This document shows, one piece after another, positions 2,836-59,316 of a DNA stretch of 64,000 nt (position 1 is the stretch's first letter; the number at the start of each line of letters is the position of its first letter). The notes beneath the pieces are model-generated. The model had not been told where the DNA came from and searched no databases. It was given only the letters and a program-made list of their open reading frames with translations. Made by a program: the position numbers and the translations under genes. This stretch comes from Candidatus Gastranaerophilales bacterium (lineage in GTDB: Bacteria; Cyanobacteriota; Vampirovibrionia; Gastranaerophilales; Gastranaerophilaceae), in contig CALUWE010000001.1 in assembly GCA_944324425.1 (NCBI GenBank), forward strand, positions 124,001 to 188,000, in the 5' to 3' direction.

Positions 2836-3366
2836 TTATGCGTTAAGTTCAAGTTCTTTTTCTTGAATATTGCCGTCTTCATCCAAGCTGAAAGACTGCA
2901 CTCTTGTTCTTTTATTAATTATGTATGCAAAAAGTTCTCTGCATTTATCTGAATGTTTTTTAACTGCCGCTTTTATGCCTTTTTTTATTTCGGGAGTTCT
3001 CATATCTTCTACGTCAGGGCTGAACGCAACTTTTGAAGGTTTAATTGTGGCAAATTCTTCTTCGTTTGTTTTATCAGCCTGAACATCGGCTTCTATAATT
3101 GCCTGTATTTTGCCGTCATTGTCTTCAACACCGAAATATCTTTTTAAATAGCCGCCGTTCATATAATGGTCGCAAAAACGGTTAAACATATTTTTGCCTT
3201 TTTCGCCTTTTGAAGAATCCCATTTTGTTACTTGGTCTCTTATGTGAAGCATATCGTAAAAGCCGTATTCATATTCAACAAAGTTAAGCGGCGTTTCATT
3301 GCTTACGTTTATTGTACTTAGATGTTTTTGTCCAAAATTTATATTGTTAACAGGGTTAATATTCAT
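2836..3366 (-). CDS. Unknown protein with N-terminal MNINPVNN-NFG tag
   Basis: A 176-residue soluble protein with no recognisable domain. It begins MNINPVNNINFGQKH, and the same MNINPVNN plus NFG start occurs on the otherwise unrelated protein at 26395. The body is charged and mixed alpha/beta. It has an acidic middle and ends in a charged C-terminal segment (SLDEDGNIQEKELELNA). There is no signal peptide. The start has a purine-rich ribosome site (GAGGAATT) immediately before the ATG. It has its own terminator and is divergent from ispD, so it is a single-gene unit. I cannot assign a function. The tag suggests membership of a lineage-specific protein set. Confidence 0.75.
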   Translation of the reverse strand: MNINPVNNINFGQKHLSTINVSNETPLNFVEYEYGFYDMLHIRDQVTKWDSSKGEKGKNMFNRFCDHYMNGGYLKRYFGVEDNDGKIQAIIEADVQADKTNEEEFATIKPSKVAFSPDVEDMRTPEIKKGIKAAVKKHSDKCRELFAYIINKRTRVQSFSLDEDGNIQEKELELNA

Positions 3367-11524: not shown

Positions 11525-12328
11525 ATGCAAAAAGTTTATGAAAAAGAGGATATAGCCTTATTTCAAGGGGATTGTATTGAAATTTTAAGTAAAGCAACTC
11601 CAAAATCCGTTGATATGATCTTTGCAGATCCACCGTATATGTTATCTAATGGTGGAATTACATGCCAATCTGGAAAGGTTGTTTTAGTTAATAAAGGAAA
11701 GTGGGATGAAAGTAAAGGAATTGATGAGGATTTTGAATTCCACAACAAATGGATAAAAGCCTGCAAAAGAGTATTGAAACCGAATGGAACAATCTGGATT
11801 TCGGGAACTTACCATTCTATTTATGCTTGTGGGTTTGCCTTGCAAAAAAACGGATTTAAAATTTTAAATGATATTTGTTGGTTTAAACCCAATGCTTCAC
11901 CTAATATGTCTTGCAGGTATTTTACAGCAAGCCATGAAACACTTTTATGGGCAAAAATAGATAACAAAGAAAAACATAAATTTAATTATGAGCTCATGAA
12001 AAATGGTGTTTGGGGTGAAGATTTTATCAAAAAGCCAGAAAAACAAATGCGTTCAGTTTGGGCAATAGGAACTCCTAAAAATTATGAAAAAGAATTTGGA
12101 AAGCACCCGACACAAAAACCTTTAGAATTGTTAAGGCGGATAATTCTAGCTTCCACAAATAAAGATGATTTAATTTTAGACCCTTTTACAGGAAGCTCAA
12201 CAACTGGTATAATGGCTTTAGAATTGGGAAGAAGATTTATTGGAATTGATTTAGAAAAGGAATACTTAGACCTTTCAATTAGAAGGTTTGAGCGAGCCTT
12301 TTCAAAGAAGGAAAAAGTATGGCAGTAG
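11525..12328 (+). CDS. dpnA: DpnA-like adenine DNA methyltransferase
   Basis: A 267-residue N6-adenine methyltransferase of the beta type: the catalytic motif FADPPYMLSNGG (about residues 35-46) precedes the SAM motif DPFTGSSTTGIMALELGR (about 219-236). HPTQKPLELLRRII just before it is the family motif X region. In DpnII systems this second methylase modifies GATC and can act on single-stranded DNA. It is first in a five-gene plus-strand operon and overlaps dpnM by 10 bp. The start codon is 6 nt past TATAAT, so early expression of the protecting methylase may come from a leaderless message. Confidence 0.9.
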   Translation: MQKVYEKEDIALFQGDCIEILSKATPKSVDMIFADPPYMLSNGGITCQSGKVVLVNKGKWDESKGIDEDFEFHNKWIKACKRVLKPNGTIWISGTYHSIYACGFALQKNGFKILNDICWFKPNASPNMSCRYFTASHETLLWAKIDNKEKHKFNYELMKNGVWGEDFIKKPEKQMRSVWAIGTPKNYEKEFGKHPTQKPLELLRRIILASTNKDDLILDPFTGSSTTGIMALELGRRFIGIDLEKEYLDLSIRRFERAFSKKEKVWQ

Positions 12329-13161
12329 TTTTAAAACAATTGAAAAACGAAACATATCCAATTGTTAAATGGGTTGGCGGGAAACGCCAGCTAATGTTTG
12401 AACTGCTTAAAAATATGCCAAAGTCATACAACAGATATTTTGAACCTTTTATCGGTGGTGGAGCTCTGTTTTTTGAACTGCAACCACAAAATGGTTATAT
12501 TTCAGATATGAACGAGGAGCTGATAAATTTATATTCAACTGTTAAATATAATGTTTATGAATTAATTGCAGATCTGAATAAGCATGAAGTTTCAAAAGAA
12601 TATTTTTTAGAAATAAGAAATTTAGATCGAACTGAAAAATATTCAACACTTTCAAATGTAGAAAAAGCAAGTCGCTTTATATACTTAAATAGGACTTGTT
12701 TTAACGGATTGTATAGAGTAAATTCTCAAGGACAATTTAATGTTCCGTTTGGAAACTATAAAAATCCAAGAATTGTCGATACGGATAATTTAATAAATTG
12801 TTCAAAATTACTTAAAGATACAGAAATTAAATGTACAGATTTTTCAACGATTCTAGAGAAAGTCCATAAAGGTGATTTTGTCTATTTTGACCCTCCTTAT
12901 GTTCCATTAAATGAGACTTCTAGTTTTACTTCATATACAAAAGATGGTTTTGATATTGATATGCAATTTAAACTAAGAGAGGTCTGCGATGAATTGGATT
13001 CAAAGGGTGTAAAATTTATGCTTTCAAATTCTGATACCAAATTGGTTAATGAATTATATGCAAATTATGAAATCAAAAAAGTTTTTGCTTCTAGGGCAGT
13101 AAACGCTAATGCTAATGGTAGAGGTAAAATTACAGAAGTTTTGGTGAGGAATTATGAATGA
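12319..13161 (+). CDS. dpnM: DpnM/Dam-like GATC adenine methyltransferase
   Basis: A 280-residue alpha-type adenine methyltransferase (MethyltransfD12). Motif X/N-terminus is IVKWVGGKRQLMFELL (residues 14-29), motif I FEPFIGGGALFFEL (about 41-54), and catalytic motif IV VYFDPPYVPLNETSSFTSY (about 191-209). The order and spacing match Dam and DpnM, which methylate adenine in GATC. It overlaps dpnA by 10 bp and the next gene by ATGA. With the DpnII-like nuclease two genes downstream, its role is to protect host GATC sites. Confidence 0.93.
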   Translation: MAVVLKQLKNETYPIVKWVGGKRQLMFELLKNMPKSYNRYFEPFIGGGALFFELQPQNGYISDMNEELINLYSTVKYNVYELIADLNKHEVSKEYFLEIRNLDRTEKYSTLSNVEKASRFIYLNRTCFNGLYRVNSQGQFNVPFGNYKNPRIVDTDNLINCSKLLKDTEIKCTDFSTILEKVHKGDFVYFDPPYVPLNETSSFTSYTKDGFDIDMQFKLREVCDELDSKGVKFMLSNSDTKLVNELYANYEIKKVFASRAVNANANGRGKITEVLVRNYE

Positions 13162-13646
13162 AAACAAGTAGCTATCGACATACTGCTAGTTTTGGAAAAC
13201 GCGCAGAATATTTTATCATTGCTCAAATGTTAAAAGAAGGTTTAGATTGCTATGTTCCATTGGTTGATGATGAAGGAATTGACGTTGTTGTAAAAAAAGA
13301 TGATAAGACATTTATAATGGTACAAATAAAGGCTCGTTCTAAAAATGTTATAAGTGGTGATGCAGCATTATTTGCCAATCTATATCATGAAAAAAGAGAT
13401 AATTATTTTTTTGTTTTTTATTCAGAGAGAATGCAAAATGATACAGAAAAACCTTTTTATTGGATTTTATCATCAGAAGAATTTTTACAATTGGCAACCA
13501 CTAATAAAACAGGCAAAAACGTTGGTTCTAGAAGCATATGGTTTAATGGTAATAAAAAAAATAAAATTACTGGGAAAAAAGAAGAATATATAAAAGAGCA
13601 GTTTAAAAAATATGTATATTCAGATTTTAAACGAATATTGGAATAA
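13158..13646 (+). CDS. Putative PD-(D/E)XK-type nuclease-like protein of the DpnII operon
   Basis: A 162-residue protein. The early segment has a nuclease-like core: helix FGKRAEYFIIAQMLKEG, then DDEGIDVVVKKDD and FIMVQIKARSK, i.e. D...QxK on consecutive strands (about residues 33-56). This resembles the DUF4365/Mrr-like branch of the PD-(D/E)XK fold. That is a motif reading, not a proven assignment. It is inserted between methylase and endonuclease genes and joined to dpnM by an ATGA overlap, so it is part of the operon. The classical DpnII operon has only two methylases and one endonuclease. Possible roles are an accessory nuclease or a control factor. Confidence 0.65.
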   Translation: MKTSSYRHTASFGKRAEYFIIAQMLKEGLDCYVPLVDDEGIDVVVKKDDKTFIMVQIKARSKNVISGDAALFANLYHEKRDNYFFVFYSERMQNDTEKPFYWILSSEEFLQLATTNKTGKNVGSRSIWFNGNKKNKITGKKEEYIKEQFKKYVYSDFKRILE

Positions 13647-13660
13647 AAGGAAGCATAAAA

Positions 13661-14527
13661 ATGGTAAGAGATTTTCAAAAATGGTTATCAACTTTTAGAC
13701 CTTGTATTGCAGATTATGGATATTATGCGGATTTTGATAAAATTACTAAAAATATTGGCAATTTAAAAGTTGAGCTAAATATTTTAAACTCTCTAGTTGG
13801 TTCAAAAAATATTGAAAAAGATTTTGAAAATATTATAAAAAAATATCCTGAGACTTTAAAATGCATTCCTTTGCTTTTAGCTGTAAGAGCTAATGAAATT
13901 TATACAATAGATAAGGATGGGGAATATAGTTTTTCGTTTACTAAGATGAATTATTCAATTGAAGAATACAAAATGTTTATGAGAAAAACAAAGCTTTTTG
14001 ACTTGCTACAAAACCATATTGTAAATAATTTAGTAGATTATGCAACAGGTGTTGAAACGGGTTTAGATTCTAATGCTCGTAAAAATCGTGGCGGACATTT
14101 AATGGAAAATCTTGTTGAAAGTTATATTCAAAAAGCAGGTTTTATTAAGGGACAAAATTACTTTAAAGAAATGCATATTCATGAAATTGAGCAAAAATGG
14201 AATATAAATTTATCCGCAATTTCTAATCAGGGTAAAATGGAAAAACGTTTTGATTTTGTAATTAAAACAGATAAACAAATTTATGTAATTGAAACTAATT
14301 TTTATGCTAGTGGCGGCTCAAAGTTAAACGAAACAGCAAGAAGTTATAAAACACTAGCTCAAGAAGTTGCAACAATAGATGGGGTAACATTTATCTTGTT
14401 CACTGATGGTTCTGGCTGGAATAGTGCAAGAAATAATCTTGAAGAAACTTTTGATGTTTTAGATACTGTTTATAATATTCAAGACTTGGAAGATGGCATA
14501 TTGAATAATTTGGGTCAAATCCTATGA
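13661..14527 (+). CDS. dpnII: DpnII-type restriction endonuclease (GATC)
   Basis: A 288-residue type II restriction enzyme. Length and the DpnII family stretches fit: FQKWLSTFRPCIADYGYY at the start, LNILNSLVGSKNIEKDFENI, and KCIPLLLAVRANEI. The later half carries RFDFVIKTDKQIYVIETNFY (about residues 203-222), the D...ExN active-site strand pair of this family. It cuts unmethylated GATC in double-stranded DNA. The preceding GGAAGC is a ribosome site at good spacing, and the stop overlaps the next start as ATGA. The context of two GATC-type methylases makes the assignment firm. Confidence 0.92.
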   Translation: MVRDFQKWLSTFRPCIADYGYYADFDKITKNIGNLKVELNILNSLVGSKNIEKDFENIIKKYPETLKCIPLLLAVRANEIYTIDKDGEYSFSFTKMNYSIEEYKMFMRKTKLFDLLQNHIVNNLVDYATGVETGLDSNARKNRGGHLMENLVESYIQKAGFIKGQNYFKEMHIHEIEQKWNINLSAISNQGKMEKRFDFVIKTDKQIYVIETNFYASGGSKLNETARSYKTLAQEVATIDGVTFILFTDGSGWNSARNNLEETFDVLDTVYNIQDLEDGILNNLGQIL

Positions 14528-15453
14528 CAGAAACAATGTTTCAAAAATTAATAGAACAAGAATTAAAATTAATAAAAGAATTGTTATTACAAATTAATGT
14601 TAAAAACGAAGGACACATTAAGGGAACAGCATTAGAATTTAGGCTGAGGAGTCTTTTTTCAAAAATGCTGCCTTCTTTTTGTTTGGTTTCTAATGGTTGG
14701 ATAATTGACGAAAAAGGTAACAAGTCTGACGAACGTGATTTACTCGTCTACAATAAGGACAAGGCACCACAAATTTTATTTGATATTGGTACTGGAATTT
14801 TTCCAATAGAATCAATTGAATATGACATTCAGGTCAAAAACTCCATTACAGACAAAAGCTTCAAACAAGCTTATGATAAATTTGACAAACGAACTAAAAG
14901 AAATGTGCTTTTAGGAATAAGTGGAACAAGTTTATTCAAAAAATATACGAAAATTGATCCAAAATATCTACACTCTCCTAAAATTTGTGCTTTTGCTTCA
15001 GAAGATGACAAGTATTATTTTTTCTCTAGAGAAAAGATGAAATACAAAAAAATTTTTAACATTAATAAATTACAACTAGATAATGGTCCAGCAATAAATG
15101 TAAACAATAAAAGTTGTAATTTTACAATTAATGGTAATAATTTATCAGAATTTGGAGAAAAGGAAATTAGTATATGCAGATGGTTTTGTGTTGACCTAAA
15201 ACCCCAAAGCAACATGCTTGGATTTATTAACGGATTTGTCAACACCCTTTATAAGGAAAAGACAGGAAAATATTTTTATGATTTTAATAATAGAAAACCC
15301 AAATGTCTAACATTTGTGGTATTTGACAATGATGGAAAACAAATATTTCAAGCATCAGATGAAGAATTAAACAAAATATTGAGCTTTGAAACAAATGCGG
15401 CTTTTCATATAAATGGCAGCATTGAATTATCAATAAAGGCATATACAAAGTAA
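14524..15453 (+). CDS. DUF6602-like nuclease-related protein in the restriction island
   Basis: A 309-residue protein. Its N-terminal half follows the DUF6602 pattern: GHIKGTALEFRLRSLF helix, LPSFCLVSNGWIIDEKGN, then KSDERDLLVYNKD and IESIEYDIQVKNSI. The D...xxK strand pair (about residues 70-105) resembles a PD-(D/E)XK core with an unusual DIQVK in place of EVK. The C-terminal half is unassigned. The gene is coupled to the endonuclease by an ATGA overlap and is last in the operon. Relatives are known beside defence genes, so a defence-linked role is likely but inferred. Base use is AT-rich and irregular, like the rest of the island. Confidence 0.65.
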   Translation: MTETMFQKLIEQELKLIKELLLQINVKNEGHIKGTALEFRLRSLFSKMLPSFCLVSNGWIIDEKGNKSDERDLLVYNKDKAPQILFDIGTGIFPIESIEYDIQVKNSITDKSFKQAYDKFDKRTKRNVLLGISGTSLFKKYTKIDPKYLHSPKICAFASEDDKYYFFSREKMKYKKIFNINKLQLDNGPAINVNNKSCNFTINGNNLSEFGEKEISICRWFCVDLKPQSNMLGFINGFVNTLYKEKTGKYFYDFNNRKPKCLTFVVFDNDGKQIFQASDEELNKILSFETNAAFHINGSIELSIKAYTK

Positions 15454-26394: not shown

Positions 26395-26964
26395 ATGAAT
26401 ATAAACCCTGTAAATAATTCTTGTAATTTCGGCAAAAGCCCGATTTTCAATTGCACGGTAAAAAGAAAAGGTACTAACCAAAAAGAAGGCGCAACTTTAT
26501 ACATATATGACAAAAGAAATCCTGATGACAGAAAAGAAATCAGAGAATCAAACTTGCCCGTAAGATTGCGCACAAATTTTGACAATTTATTTGCTGCAAA
26601 AAATGCAAAATTTTATTGTCTTCAAACAGATGGCACACAAGAATTTGTTTCTGCCGCACAAACAAGCAGGCATTATAAACCCGAAGAAGGAAAATACGGC
26701 GGATTACATACTATTATTGACGAATACGGCGAAAGCACAGATTTTGTTGACCCCGCAACACCTCTTTTGGCGCACATTGCAAAAACAGCAATGGAAAAAG
26801 GGGACGGCTATATAGCAACATCTTTCAGAGCCGAAGAAGCGCCCTCATTTAAAAATGCAAGCTTTTCCGAAACAAAATATGAAAATTGGGTGATTCCCGA
26901 AAGGCGTTTTGTCGGCTTGATTGACAGAGCAGAAAAAAGAGCCGGAATTGAATATATAGTATAA
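26395..26964 (+). CDS. Unknown protein with N-terminal MNINPVNN-NFG tag
   Basis: A 189-residue soluble protein beginning MNINPVNNSCNFGKSP. The first eight residues and the following NFG match the protein at 2836-3366. The rest does not, and synonymous codons differ, so the tag is conserved at protein level. The body is mixed alpha/beta (LHTIIDEYGESTDF, PATPLLAHIAKTAM) with no domain I recognise and no signal peptide. CGAGG is present upstream, together with a short TGTG-TATT-CACA hairpin. It is convergent with gatD, 9 bp apart. Function unknown. Confidence 0.75.
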   Translation: MNINPVNNSCNFGKSPIFNCTVKRKGTNQKEGATLYIYDKRNPDDRKEIRESNLPVRLRTNFDNLFAAKNAKFYCLQTDGTQEFVSAAQTSRHYKPEEGKYGGLHTIIDEYGESTDFVDPATPLLAHIAKTAMEKGDGYIATSFRAEEAPSFKNASFSETKYENWVIPERRFVGLIDRAEKRAGIEYIV

Positions 26965-37797: not shown

Positions 37798-39855
37798 ATG
37801 CTCAATCGAATTTCGATGGCAGACAGTCTGACCAAAAATTACAGTCTGCAATCATCAACAAATGTTCAAAAAAGAGAGAATAATGCAACAAACGTTATTC
37901 AATTTAAAGGTCAAAATGCAAGTTACGGTGCAGATAAATTAGCTGCAGCTTATCGTGCTTATAACAAAATTCCGATGGCCTCAACCGTTTCCTTTACAGG
38001 AAGCTTGGCTACGGCTTTTGAAGAATTAAACCAATCAATGGTAACTTGCCAAGACATTGAACATGGCAGAAAAGGTGAAGAAGTAGGCTCACGTGCGGAT
38101 GTATCACAACTTGTTTCAAAATTTATAGATGATCTTCCACGCTATGATGATGCAATGAAAACCACAATTCAAATTGCAAAAGATAAAGACAAAGGAACGA
38201 TAACAGACGCCAGAACCCAAGTGAAAAAAGGCCATGGCGACAATATGAAATTTGAAATGGTTGTAAGAACCCCGAGAAAAGAAAATGAAAACCCCGGTTG
38301 GACAGAAAAAATTCAACAAATTTTAAAATTTGAACTTGAACCATATTCAATTAATCTTGATTCCGATAACAGAAGAAGCATAAAAGGAACCCCTGAAAAT
38401 GCTTATGTATTGAATACAAAAGGAAAATTGATGGCAGTTGTTGAAGACGGCGATAATGTTCTTTTAACAAATGCAGGCAAATTAAATAAAAAAGATTCAT
38501 CAAGCGGTTACTTAAACGTTACTGCAGAACAAAACAAAAATGTATTCAAACCGTTTGAAGTTCATAATGTTCCTGTTGTTGAACAGAAATCAGGCGGCTC
38601 ACAAGGCGGCGGCACAGAACTTGTAATCGGTCTTGAAGACGGCAGATTTGTTCCTGAAATTATCGATTCAATTGCAACTTTTGTTGAAAAAGTTGATAAC
38701 GGCGAAATCGTTCTTGATGAATTTAAACCCGCAGAAGGTGCACAAAATATGCAGCTTTCAATGTTAGCAGGCGGCTTTGGTTCACGTGCGGAATATACAA
38801 ATGCTTCATCAAGCAAAATTATGCATGGTAACCCTCAAGGCTCAAACCTTACAAAAGGCTGCTTCAGAACAGCAACAGGCTTAACACCTATGGAAACAAC
38901 CTTTGTTTCACTTCATAAGGCAGGCCTTCTTGATTGCTCAAAAGGCAATTTGGGCATCGGCAAAAACATTAAATTCTATTTGAATGATTCAGGCGTAAAC
39001 GGCGGTAACGGCGGCTTCACGGTTGATATGTACGATACAATGGAAAGAGAAGGCAGAGATAGCTTGCTTATACTTCCAAACGATGCTATGAGCCGTATTC
39101 CAAAAGCTTTATCAGAAATGACAAGCATAATGAATTCAGGAAACGCTGCAGTTGTTATGGTTGCAAAAGAAGTTGATAAGGAAGATGCAAGAGGTTCTTT
39201 GGGCATTATGAAAATTAATGACAAAGGTGAAATTGAAGCTTTTGCGGAAAAACCGAAAGAATTTGAAGAAGGCTATGTTGATGAAAATGACAACTGTTTT
39301 GCAAATACTTTCCAATTTGCGGTTTCAAAAGAAGCATTTAAAGCATTATCTATCTTAGAACCGTATTTACCTGCAAATAACTCAGGTAAAGAACCAAGAG
39401 ACTGGTCAAAAACATTCACACCAATCTTAATGGCCTTAACTCAAAACGAAGATGCCGAAGGTGCTCAAAAACAAATTAAAGATTCTATCAAACAAGATAT
39501 GCCATTAGAAGCACTTAGCGAAGCAAAAGAAGTTCTTGGTAATCAAAAGATTTATGCTGTTAAATCTAATGAACCTTGGGCAGATTGCGGCACATTAAAC
39601 GCACTTTATCACACAACAATGCAAATTGCATCAGGCGACTTCCCGTTGGAAGATTTCGAAAGAAAACACGTATTAGATTCAGTTAACACTCAAACAGGTC
39701 TTGTTGCTTCAAGCCCTGAACAAAAAGCGGAAATTGAAGATAAATACGACATCGAAGGCCAAGTAATGGCAGTGCCTAAAGCAAAAGCTGTTTCAAACGA
39801 TATAATAGATGAATACGCGGATGCAATTACAAGATATTCTGATAAAGCCGAATAA
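37798..39855 (+). CDS. Sugar nucleotidyltransferase-like protein with INFKG-type tag
   Basis: A 685-residue protein. The first ~70 residues carry the lineage-type words VIQFKGQNASYG (about 38-49) and VSFTGSLA. Residues ~80-310 are unassigned, with a Gly-rich loop GGSQGGGTEL. From ~318 a nucleotidyltransferase fold is visible: LSMLAGGFGSRAEY (glycine-rich NTP loop), LLILPNDAMSR, GSLGIMKINDKGEIEAFAEK, and WADCGTLNALY near the end. This is the layout of glucose-1-phosphate adenylyl/uridylyltransferases, but the usual PK.M..V Lys region after the loop is altered. A nucleotide-sugar role is inferred and the substrate is unknown. AGAAAGG precedes the ATG. It is a single-gene unit with good promoter and terminator. 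Confidence 0.78.
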   Translation: MLNRISMADSLTKNYSLQSSTNVQKRENNATNVIQFKGQNASYGADKLAAAYRAYNKIPMASTVSFTGSLATAFEELNQSMVTCQDIEHGRKGEEVGSRADVSQLVSKFIDDLPRYDDAMKTTIQIAKDKDKGTITDARTQVKKGHGDNMKFEMVVRTPRKENENPGWTEKIQQILKFELEPYSINLDSDNRRSIKGTPENAYVLNTKGKLMAVVEDGDNVLLTNAGKLNKKDSSSGYLNVTAEQNKNVFKPFEVHNVPVVEQKSGGSQGGGTELVIGLEDGRFVPEIIDSIATFVEKVDNGEIVLDEFKPAEGAQNMQLSMLAGGFGSRAEYTNASSSKIMHGNPQGSNLTKGCFRTATGLTPMETTFVSLHKAGLLDCSKGNLGIGKNIKFYLNDSGVNGGNGGFTVDMYDTMEREGRDSLLILPNDAMSRIPKALSEMTSIMNSGNAAVVMVAKEVDKEDARGSLGIMKINDKGEIEAFAEKPKEFEEGYVDENDNCFANTFQFAVSKEAFKALSILEPYLPANNSGKEPRDWSKTFTPILMALTQNEDAEGAQKQIKDSIKQDMPLEALSEAKEVLGNQKIYAVKSNEPWADCGTLNALYHTTMQIASGDFPLEDFERKHVLDSVNTQTGLVASSPEQKAEIEDKYDIEGQVMAVPKAKAVSNDIIDEYADAITRYSDKAE

Positions 39856-55632: not shown

Positions 55633-55726
55633 CTGTTAAGTTATGTAACATTTTTTAAATTTTTGGTTCAAAAGTGCCGAAAACATGGGATGAAGTATGC
55701 TTATAAAAAGAAGGAGCAGCCAGACC

Positions 55727-57313
55727 ATGACGGATATTACAAATAAAGATCTAACTACCGTTGATCCTCAAGTTACAGGTGTTACAGCGACAGGTGCCTC
55801 GCAAACTCAACAGCCGGCAGGAACCGTTGCAAATGAAACTCCTTTATTTGACGGTACGCAGCAAACAGAAGGTGTTTCGACAACGGACAGAACAGATGCA
55901 TATATCCCTTCTGCAACTCAAACAGACGGCGTAAAATCAGCAGAAATGTCGGCGCTTGAAGAACAATTGGTTGAAAAACAAAGTGCGGTTGCAGATATTG
56001 ATGCAAAAATTGAAGCCAACAGTGTTGATCAAGAAAATAAGAAAAATGCATATTTTGCAGCAGGCGACACTTTAGAAGCCGCATCTGCAGCTTATGATAA
56101 AGCGACACAAGAATATACGGCAGCATTTGCAGAGCTTGAAGAGCTTCAAAATTCAAATGTGGTTTCAAAATTCTTAAGCACAATTACACAAAAAATGGCC
56201 GCAGCTGAAGAAAAGGTTAAAACCCTTGAAGCAACAATGAAAAAAGCTAATGAAGACTATCAAAAAGCGCTTCAAGAAAGAGAAGATGCACGCGAAGAAT
56301 ATACGAATTCAATTCAAGAGGGAATTGACCTTAAAAAAGAAAAAGAAAGCGCATCAAAAGAGGTTGATACCGTTCAACAGCAAATAAAAGAACTGTCTCA
56401 GCAAGAAGCTAACAGCCAAAGCCAAGAAGCATCTGATGCCGAAGGCGGCAATAAACCTGTTGAAGAATCAGGCGAAGGCGCAGAATCCGGTGAAAACGGA
56501 GAATCAGGTTCGGGAGAAAATCCTCCTTCCGATAACACAACAGACCCGACCGGAGAAAATCCGGAAGATCCGTATCAAGAAGAGTATGATAAACTTAATG
56601 CTCTGAAAGAAGATGCCGCAAGAGAGGCCGAAGAACGTGAAAAACGTCCCGACATCCATGAAATGGATTTAGAAGACGTTGATAAATTAGTCGAACTATT
56701 CTGCGGCGAGTTAACCCATGGCGAAGTTCAAAGCTTAGGACTTGGGCTGCTTGATATGGTTAATGAGGCTTCCAAAATTTTTGAAACAAAATTAACGGCC
56801 TCAGCTTATTCAAAATCGGGAGCTATGGCAACCAGCGACAATGCCAGCGCAAAAGAACACTCTGAAGCACAGGCGGATTTTACGGAAGCAGTACTTCAGG
56901 TTTCAGATGTTTTAAATACAAATAATGTAGAATTTTACAATGTTTCGGATCAATCCAATTTTGAATTAGCTTCACATACACTGGACAGAATTAACGATGG
57001 CGAATACATTAAAACAGACACGCTTCAAAAACAAGCATCCGTCGTCAAAAATATTCGTGTAACGGAAAAAACAACAACCGAAGCGGCCGAAACAAATGAT
57101 GACAAATATAAACAGTACTCTGACGCAATTCTGAACGAATTACATGATTTAATTTCAGACTCCGGAGACGGAATTTCGGAACAAGAGTACAATTACATTA
57201 AAACAAACTTCGACCTCAAATCTTCTCAAGATATGGAAAGCGCATTTGATTATCTTGAAGAAGAAGCAAGAAAACATAACATTACAGCAGCAATCAATGA
57301 ATATGAAAATTAA
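55727..57313 (+). CDS. Acidic coiled-coil protein, paralog A, unknown
   Basis: A 528-residue protein. The Thr/Gln-rich N-terminus (about 1-75) precedes a long coiled coil (about 76-240, e.g. AEEKVKTLEATMKKANEDYQ). A Gly/Ser/Glu/Pro linker follows, then a conserved C-terminal region (about 330-528). That region matches the downstream gene: EAQADF, VSD, NNVEF, VSDQSNFELA, NDGEYIKTDT. It also contains an EF-hand-like loop, SGDGISEQEYNYI. There is no signal peptide or membrane segment. I start at ATG 55727 because AAGGAG lies 10 nt upstream; the ATG at 55697 precedes that site. Terminator at 57338. No known family; a structural, secreted or surface role is possible. Confidence 0.75.
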   Translation: MTDITNKDLTTVDPQVTGVTATGASQTQQPAGTVANETPLFDGTQQTEGVSTTDRTDAYIPSATQTDGVKSAEMSALEEQLVEKQSAVADIDAKIEANSVDQENKKNAYFAAGDTLEAASAAYDKATQEYTAAFAELEELQNSNVVSKFLSTITQKMAAAEEKVKTLEATMKKANEDYQKALQEREDAREEYTNSIQEGIDLKKEKESASKEVDTVQQQIKELSQQEANSQSQEASDAEGGNKPVEESGEGAESGENGESGSGENPPSDNTTDPTGENPEDPYQEEYDKLNALKEDAAREAEEREKRPDIHEMDLEDVDKLVELFCGELTHGEVQSLGLGLLDMVNEASKIFETKLTASAYSKSGAMATSDNASAKEHSEAQADFTEAVLQVSDVLNTNNVEFYNVSDQSNFELASHTLDRINDGEYIKTDTLQKQASVVKNIRVTEKTTTEAAETNDDKYKQYSDAILNELHDLISDSGDGISEQEYNYIKTNFDLKSSQDMESAFDYLEEEARKHNITAAINEYEN

Positions 57314-57337
57314 AAAACGAAACTAAATTAAGCTTTT

Positions 57338-57363
57338 AAGCCGCAATTTATGCGGCTTTTTTA
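57338..57363 (+). terminator. Terminator of paralog A
   Basis: Stem AAGCCGCA / TGCGGCTT followed by six T. Confidence 0.82.
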
Positions 57364-57472
57364 TTTGTTAATTTTTATTTGTAAACAAATGTAACAAAAT
57401 TGTTAAAGTTTGAATTTGTATATTTTATATATACTTTATATATATGTAGTGTAAAATGTGGAAAGAAACAAA

Positions 57473-59254
57473 ATGTCATTCTTATCAGGAGTAAGTTCAA
57501 TAGTTTCAAACGTCGGCGAAACAGTCGTTGGCGCTGTTGGAGCTGCAGCTGATGCCGCATCAAGAGCATTAGGCATTGTTGAAGATACTTCTGTTACGGA
57601 TGCTCTCGCAGGTGAAGTAGACAACGAAAATGCCGGTTTAGATACGTTTAATTCAACTTCAACACAAGCCAAAGATGCTGCACAACAGGCAGATGCTAAC
57701 CAAAAAACAGCAGAAGAAAACAAATTAAGCGCAGAAGAAAGAATCGTCGCAGCCGATGCAAAAATTGCGGCAGCAGACACCGAAATCGCTTCTTGCACAA
57801 CGCAGTTGGAAGAACTTAAAGCTCTTCAAGCTGCTCAAAATGCATCATCCGAAAGCACAACTGGCACAAAGGATGAAACAAAACAAGATTATTCACAACA
57901 AATAGCAGCAGTTCAAGCACAATTAACAGCCGCTCAAAAAGCAAAAGCTGAAGCAGAAGCTGAAAAGGCAGAAGCTGAAGCTGAACTTGGCGAAGCCGAA
58001 ACAGACATAGAAACAGCAAAAGCTGAAGGTGCAGATGCCGAAAGCAACGCACAAAGCAGCGCTGACGGCGGCAATGCAACTGCAGAAAGTGCAGAAGGCA
58101 CGGAAGCTTCAGCTGAAACAGCAGTTACGGAAGCCGAAACAGAAAAGGCTGAAGAAGAAGCTGCAGAACAATCGGGAACAAGTGAACAACCCGCAGAAGC
58201 TGCAACAACCGAAGGTCAAACCACAACAAATGAAGGTTCAACCCAAGGTGAAACAGGATATACCGAATTATCAGGCACAACAACAAATAATGCCGGAACA
58301 AGCACAACAGTTGTAAATAATTCAAATTATTCAACTTCAGACAGCACGGATAACGGCACCTCTTTAGAAGAACATTCAACATCTGCCGCAACAACTCCTT
58401 CAGATACAACAACAAATACAGAACCTGAAACAGGCATGGATTACGGCGATTTGGGAGACTATTTGGCAGATGAAATGCAAGGCGAAAACCAAGACCCAAA
58501 TATGCAAAATCCGGGGTCAGATTCTATGCAACAACCAAATTTAACACCCGAAGAAGAAGTACACCAAAGAATTGAAAATAACGAAGAAACTGATGCTGAA
58601 ATGGCAGATGTAATCATCAACGATATGTTCGAAGGTGAATCCTTAGAAATCGGTACGGAAGAACTTATCGGTATGGCAGCACACGATGCCGTTGAAGTTG
58701 CATCAGAAACCTTCAAAACAAAATTATATTCAACAACTGTTTATTCAACAGCAGTTTCAACAAGCACAGATACAGCAACAGTTGAAGAAAACCAAGAAGC
58801 AATAGCAGACTTTATGGAAGCATACAGCATAACATCAGACAAAATTAATGCTCCAAATGTTGAATTCTTAAGCTTAACAGATAAATCAAACTATGAAAAC
58901 GCAACAAGAGTTCAAGAAAGATTGAATAACGGCGAATACATTTTAACAAGAGAAATTGAAAAATCAACAGCAACAGTTCAAAGCATTCAAGTTTCAACTG
59001 ATGAAACAGTTAACCAAAAAGAAGAAATGAGCAAAACAAAAGGCCAAGATCTTTTAAGACAATTAGAAGCAGTTATTACAACGGATGAAACCATTCAAGA
59101 AGACAAAAACGACGATGTTTTAACACAAAAAGAATATGATGAAATTGAAAATTTCTTCAATAACACGGACGACACCGCTTCATACTACAAAGAAATGGTT
59201 GAAGAAGCTAAAAAATACGGCATCTACACGGAAGCAAACGCAATAGCTGCATAA
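57473..59254 (+). CDS. Acidic coiled-coil protein, paralog B, unknown
   Basis: A 593-residue protein. It starts with a Gly/Ala/Val-rich amphipathic segment (LSGVSSIVSNVGETVVGAVG). An Ala/Glu/Lys coiled coil (about 58-170, EAEAEKAEAEAELGEAETD) and a long Thr/Ser/Glu-rich disordered stretch (about 175-380) follow. The C-terminal region (about 395-593) is homologous to paralog A: EAIADFMEAY, SDKINAPNVEFLSLTDKSNY, NNGEYILTRE and an EF-like DKNDDVLTQKEYDEI. No signal peptide. I start at ATG 57473, with GGAAAG 7 nt upstream; the GTG 15 bp earlier overlaps that site. Tandem duplication with paralog A is clear. The disordered centre could be a stalk, and the Thr/Ser content could carry glycans. Confidence 0.75.
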   Translation: MSFLSGVSSIVSNVGETVVGAVGAAADAASRALGIVEDTSVTDALAGEVDNENAGLDTFNSTSTQAKDAAQQADANQKTAEENKLSAEERIVAADAKIAAADTEIASCTTQLEELKALQAAQNASSESTTGTKDETKQDYSQQIAAVQAQLTAAQKAKAEAEAEKAEAEAELGEAETDIETAKAEGADAESNAQSSADGGNATAESAEGTEASAETAVTEAETEKAEEEAAEQSGTSEQPAEAATTEGQTTTNEGSTQGETGYTELSGTTTNNAGTSTTVVNNSNYSTSDSTDNGTSLEEHSTSAATTPSDTTTNTEPETGMDYGDLGDYLADEMQGENQDPNMQNPGSDSMQQPNLTPEEEVHQRIENNEETDAEMADVIINDMFEGESLEIGTEELIGMAAHDAVEVASETFKTKLYSTTVYSTAVSTSTDTATVEENQEAIADFMEAYSITSDKINAPNVEFLSLTDKSNYENATRVQERLNNGEYILTREIEKSTATVQSIQVSTDETVNQKEEMSKTKGQDLLRQLEAVITTDETIQEDKNDDVLTQKEYDEIENFFNNTDDTASYYKEMVEEAKKYGIYTEANAIAA

Positions 59255-59288: not shown

Positions 59289-59316
59289 ATAAAAGCCCCA
59301 ATAAAGGGGCTTTTAT
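59289..59316. terminator. Bidirectional terminator between paralog B and carB
   Basis: Stem AAAAGCCCC / GGGGCTTTT with a 6-nt loop and T/A tracts, between convergent genes. Confidence 0.85.

Follow-up and report, generated by a model that had tools for sequence, protein, structure and literature searches.

A genus-restricted pair of acidic coiled-coil proteins in Galligastranaerophilus and the composite HLR1-like promoter that joins one of them to a regulon of mainly signal-less proteins

Genes A and B and their genomic setting

The window analyzed here, a stretch of 64,000 nucleotides from a Candidatus Gastranaerophilales genome of the genus Galligastranaerophilus, contains two adjacent open reading frames (ORFs) on the + strand, genes A and B. 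The features of the locus are as follows.

55634 to 55649, + strand: HLR1-like direct repeat upstream of A, TGTTAAGTTATGTAAC, imperfect in the window and without promoter core
55727 to 57313, + strand: gene A, acidic protein with a coiled-coil/disordered N-terminal part and a conserved C-terminal domain (ORF; orthologues at the matching locus in other species of the genus; start from orthologue alignment)
56651 to 57310, + strand: C-terminal domain of A, 220 aa (homology to B and orthologues; dN/dS 0.08 to 0.11; model pLDDT 74, pTM 0.42)
57340 to 57362, + strand: terminator-like hairpin GCCGCAATTTATGCGGC followed by a T run, 3' of A (read from sequence)
57378 to 57395, + strand: HLR1-like direct repeat of B, TTTGTAAACAAATGTAAC, whose reverse complement GTTACATTTGTTTACAAA exactly fits the HLR1 consensus (consensus from PMC11633204)
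57410 to 57443, + strand: promoter core of B, TTGAATTT-N10-TATATACTTTATATAT, kept in all 7 B orthologues compared
57473 to 59254, + strand: gene B, acidic protein with a coiled coil, a Thr/Ser linker, and a conserved C-terminal domain (ORF; orthologues within the genus)
58559 to 59251, + strand: C-terminal domain of B, 231 aa (homology to A and orthologues; dN/dS 0.12 to 0.14; model pLDDT 78, pTM 0.41)
59292 to 59316, + strand: hairpin and T run between B and convergent carB (read from sequence)

The start of A was placed at 55727 (MTDITNKDL) and not at the first ATG (55697), as its orthologues begin MASIDDKNL or MASIDNKNL; a GGAG lies upstream of position 55727. B starts at 57473 (MSFLSG). 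A terminator-like hairpin separates the two genes, so each is probably transcribed separately. The initial annotation had described both products as acidic and lacking a signal peptide, and this is borne out: the calculated pIs of the ORF translations are 4.28 (A) and 4.05 (B), and neither N terminus has a hydrophobic Sec-like core, with hydropathy below that of signal-peptide controls. Each protein contains 1 Cys and 0 Trp, while about 9 Cys plus Trp would be expected from neighboring genes.

The A/B family is present in all nine genomes of the genus, and the syntenic locus order is uvrA, a small ORF, a U32 peptidase-like gene, yqeG, A, B, and convergent carB. In two species (G099 and G026) B alone was found, and in G098 an A-type C terminus was found in a gene interrupted by masked bases. 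An extra 562-aa ORF (L025:9781-11469), whose product has an N-terminal ..VSFRG.. motif and is unlike A or B, lies between B and carB in G088. Compared with the two closest species (G100 and G101), uvrA, yqeG, and carB are 95 to 99% identical, whereas A and B are 52 to 63% identical. The C-terminal domain, with dN/dS values of 0.08 to 0.14 against close species, is thus under purifying selection. The N-terminal parts (dN/dS 0.32 to 0.55; 44 to 56% identity where carB is 98% identical) are under much weaker constraint.

Outside the genus, no credible match was found: in the family (383 genomes) and the order (286 genomes), all other matches were weak (best E value, 0.004), and none of the viral contigs searched carried A/B relatives. 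As far as they were read, the weak C-terminal profile matches in other genera lie in unrelated frames (malQ-like, GatA-like, and long repeat proteins), and a match in Roseivivax is an RTX-type protein with similarity limited to a short GEYVLTRDID-like stretch. By sequence, A and B are a new family restricted to the genus Galligastranaerophilus.

Elsewhere in the window, several proteins (2836-3366 [-], 26395-26964 [+], and 37798-39855 [+]) share an N-terminal motif, MNINPVNN..FGK or ..FKG-like, which may mark proteins of this group for sorting or export. A terminase-like ORF (965-2131 [-]) and clustered ORFs resembling DNA methylases and nucleases (11525-15453 [+]) are perhaps mobile-element or restriction genes.

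The shared C-terminal domain

The C-terminal regions of A and B (about 220 aa) align by blastp with an E value of 9e-25 and about 30 to 31% identity over 254 columns, and their Smith-Waterman score is 280, compared with a mean of 54 and a maximum of 94 in 500 shuffles. The shared region proposed in the initial annotation is thus real, and the words quoted for it (NVEF, N/DGEYI, and QEY/KEY) are present in the two proteins. Its description as a new conserved domain also stands. A search of curated models and PDB sequences with the C-terminal region matched no known family, A and B had no match in Pfam, NCBIfam, PHROGs, PADLOC (no defense gene match), or PDB sequence searches, and a search for further copies in the host genome found the A/B pair alone. 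Two candidates were discarded, namely phrog_25315 on B (E value, 0.0026; unsupported) and juvenile hormone diol kinase, the sole match of the PDB profile search (E value, 0.87; not significant).

AlphaFold models of both C-terminal domains, built from 13 to 14 sequences, are helical and of low confidence (pLDDT 74 to 78, pTM 0.41 to 0.42), and Foldseek returned nothing at an E value of 0.001 or below with either. The combination of a variable N-terminal part and a conserved C-terminal domain prompted us to consider a FliK-type ruler. This seems unlikely, as the all-helical prediction does not appear to match the FliK C-domain.

The composite promoter of B and its regulon

An alignment of the upstream regions of seven B orthologues revealed a strictly kept block. 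It is a rigid composite in which a direct repeat, TGTAAA-N4-TGTAAC, is followed by TTGAAWTT-N10-TATATACTTTATATAT; the same block, with equal spacing, precedes a 56-aa ORF on a contig bearing flagellar genes. The core pattern occurs at 9 sites in the host genome with up to 3 mismatches (control, 1) and, with up to 2 mismatches, at 103 sites in relatives (33 of 38 genomes, including other families of the order), where the reversed control gave 0. The direct repeat was left out of the search pattern, yet 42 of the 51 promoters retrieved by the core alone have an HLR1-like repeat at a near-fixed distance (up to 2 mismatches; 1.3% in shuffles), and TGTAA[AC] clusters at positions -30 and -20 relative to the core in these 51. 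Half of the exact HLR1 sites in 986 kb of the host genome (4/8) lie at composite promoters, and at most sites a start codon follows 20 to 40 bases 3' of the core. B thus belongs to a regulon defined by this composite promoter, and it is this promoter that gives the A/B pair its importance, as it places B in an order-wide regulon. The open-access literature that we searched contains no earlier description of such a regulon. A may also belong to it, given that it has an HLR1-like box, is paralogous to B, and lies next to it.

The Synechocystis HLR1 consensus is (G/T)TTACAWWNN(G/T)TTACAWW (PMC11633204), and Melainabacteria encode homologues of RpaA, RpaB, and NblS to which no role has been assigned there (PMC3787301). 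One full OmpR-type regulator, at L235:15664-16383 (G000:C3), was recognized in stretches covering about 54% of the host genome; its best NCBIfam model is RpaB (NF045944; E value, 2e-63), with a score of 214 bits where the cut-off is 330. We infer that an RpaB-like regulator acts on the B promoter.

The regulon products are mostly proteins of 100 to 1100 aa with coiled-coil or low-complexity sequence, often with EF-hand-like matches. Two have domains above curated cut-offs: a 714-aa host protein with a C-terminal CHAP domain (PF05257; 4e-13) and, in a sister species (G100), a 1129-aa protein (L204:263-3652) with a C-terminal ADPrib_exo_Tox domain (PF03496; 4e-20). The latter also has hydrophobic segments, and hydrophobic stretches in some regulon members recall membrane-inserting proteins, as a matter of resemblance only. 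A recurrent family of about 55 aa (MAVAPTDSIDKKLAKLY...; L083:4427-4597) follows the promoter in many genera (e.g., L198, L203, L207, L210, and L213) and has no Pfam match; homology of this family to the A/B C-terminal domain was hinted at by ranks and rejected by profile comparison. Behind one host promoter (G000:C3:20425 [-]), the regulon ORF is split into frames of 49 and 198 aa (L232), which may reflect a frameshift, an assembly error, or two genes.

In six genera (L145, L158, L161, L163, L167, and L173), regulon promoters precede a conserved transcript of about 120 bases without a clear ORF, which has GAGAGAGA and CCTACCTTCCT motifs and a terminator and is a candidate small RNA. Similar ORF-less promoter sites occur in the host genome (G000:C16:8467 and C6:12910). 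As one type of regulon promoter drives an ORF-less transcript, the regulon extends beyond exported proteins.

Better EF-hand matches than the loops of A and B, although below the Pfam curated cut-offs, occur in other regulon members, and they bear on the initial proposal that A and B are secreted or surface stalk proteins, perhaps calcium-sensitive. Acidity and coiled coils are in keeping with this proposal, and so is the loop of B (D-K-N-D-D-V-L-T-Q-K-E-Y), which is one residue short of DxDxDGxIxxxE yet conserved in B orthologues. However, the loop of A varies among orthologues (SGDGISEQEY, SENGITEEEY, SEGGITEDEY, and DVQLSDEEY), neither protein has the canonical 12-residue loop, and the EF-hand models searched matched neither. 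Calcium sensitivity is thus unsupported for A and doubtful for B, where a conserved loop stands against a noncanonical length, and we consider calcium-dependent stalks very improbable. Coiled-coil and disordered architecture by itself would suggest a stalk character.

Export of the regulon products and comparison with known systems

None of 36 distinct regulon N termini has a Sec-like hydrophobic core, compared with 120 of 537 background proteins. The fraction of Ser, Thr, Asn, and Gln in the N termini is 0.36 in the 36 regulon proteins and 0.21 in the background (P = 2e-10), and as a set the regulon N termini are enriched in Ser/Thr (P = 4e-8) and depleted in Leu (P = 1e-3); these P values are optimistic because several regulon proteins share ancestry, and the background (n = 537) is a single genome. 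Regulon N termini are also lower in Leu, Lys/Arg, and the residues ILVFM, and regulon proteins are lower in Cys/Trp, than the background. The late-starting ORF L182 was excluded from the 36 because its start lies off the usual distance. That CHAP and ADP-ribosyltransferase domains occur in proteins lacking a Sec signal suggests export by a route other than Sec. The secreted or surface location predicted in the initial annotation gains indirect support from the common regulon, the composition of the N termini, and these domains of co-regulated signal-less proteins.

The missing signal peptides and low pI of A and B would also suit cytoplasmic proteins, that is, acidic helical scaffold or stress proteins co-induced with the rest of the regulon by the RpaB-like regulator and not exported; moreover, cyanobacterial RpaB governs intracellular light-stress genes (PMC11633204). 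Against this, CHAP and ADP-ribosyltransferase exoenzyme domains normally act outside the producing cytoplasm, the regulon N termini are shifted from the background toward a type III-like composition, and A and B combine fast N-terminal divergence with Cys/Trp depletion. We therefore regard a cytoplasmic role as unlikely.

The host genome encodes FlhA (2.5e-214), FliF, FliE, and FliH above cut-off, and it has a rod gene cluster in which the Pfam rod-protein matches are partly weak. It has no match to flagellin_N and no credible match to FliD_C, although a filament of an unrecognized kind could exist. A stand-alone FlhA cytoplasmic domain without the membrane part (L080:10173-11621 [-]) is encoded on a contig apart from the main FlhA gene. 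Given an export apparatus without a filament and a large signal-less regulon, this apparatus is the most likely exporter. The link between regulon and apparatus is circumstantial, and in the stretches of the host genome that were read the composite promoter does not occur at export apparatus genes. The lack of a common promoter would be in line with export by a nonflagellar route, e.g., an unrecognized nonclassical path. Such a route appears improbable, since none of the 36 regulon proteins has a Sec-like core, a type I system is reported to be missing in gut Melainabacteria (PMC3787301), and the flagellar export set without a detected filament would need a cargo.

We slightly favor a model in which both proteins are exported as cargo, probably via a filament-less flagellar type III apparatus, with B under an RpaB-like regulator; export, type III route, and surface role are all predicted from sequence. 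In this model, an OmpR-type relative of cyanobacterial RpaB would bind the HLR1-like direct repeat of B, and RNA polymerase would use the adjoining TTGAAWTT-N10-TATATACTTTATATAT core, so that B would be transcribed from a composite promoter common to the order Gastranaerophilales. The regulon consists mainly of signal-less proteins, which would be exported, most likely by the retained flagellar-type III apparatus. Once exported, both proteins would be extended, acidic, and helical and would be secreted or sit on the cell surface. Their rapidly diverging coiled-coil/low-complexity part would face gut or host selection, and the conserved helical C-terminal domain would serve to anchor, to oligomerize, or to bind a constant partner. 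More tentatively, and with somewhat less than even confidence, the model may be extended to the whole order: in this nonphotosynthetic sister lineage of the Cyanobacteria, an RpaB-type regulator would use HLR1 sites joined to a dedicated promoter to control effector-like and surface proteins, which a flagellar apparatus lacking its filament and acting as a secretion system would export. Of these proteins, A and B would be specific to the genus.

RpaB and NblS typify light control in Cyanobacteria. Their role in nonphotosynthetic Melainabacteria is a standing question (PMC3787301), which can be tested directly on a defined set of promoters with HLR1 sites. The regulon also offers a reason why flagellar export genes are kept without a filament in gut Gastranaerophilales, where the earlier reading was genome reduction. 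The regulon products are candidate molecules for contact between these uncultured gut bacteria and their host or neighbors. The promoter is a useful handle for such proteins because they evolve too fast to be found well by similarity searches.

Among known systems, the HLR1/RpaB-NblS regulon of Cyanobacteria is similar in that the B repeat exactly fits the Synechocystis consensus and RpaB and NblS homologues are reported in Melainabacteria (PMC3787301). The targets differ, being signal-less coiled-coil, EF-hand-like, and toxin-like proteins here and photosynthesis genes in Cyanobacteria, and here the repeat keeps a fixed spacing to an unusual promoter core. B resembles EF-hand proteins in having an acidic loop between two helices; it differs from them in the noncanonical loop length, while the A loop is not conserved and both proteins lack a Pfam EF-hand match. 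As with flagellar type III substrates, the host has FlhA, FliF, FliE, FliH, and rod-type proteins, and the candidate cargo lacks a Sec signal and has an S/T/N/Q-rich N terminus. Unlike in a flagellar type III system, no flagellin_N match or credible FliD_C match was found in the host, and A and B, for which export is predicted, resemble no known substrate in sequence. The incomplete flagellar sets of Gastranaerophilales have been published as genome reduction or nonmotility (Di Rienzi 2013, Soo 2014). The host set is similarly partial, but the large co-regulated candidate cargo found here suggests that the export part may still be used.
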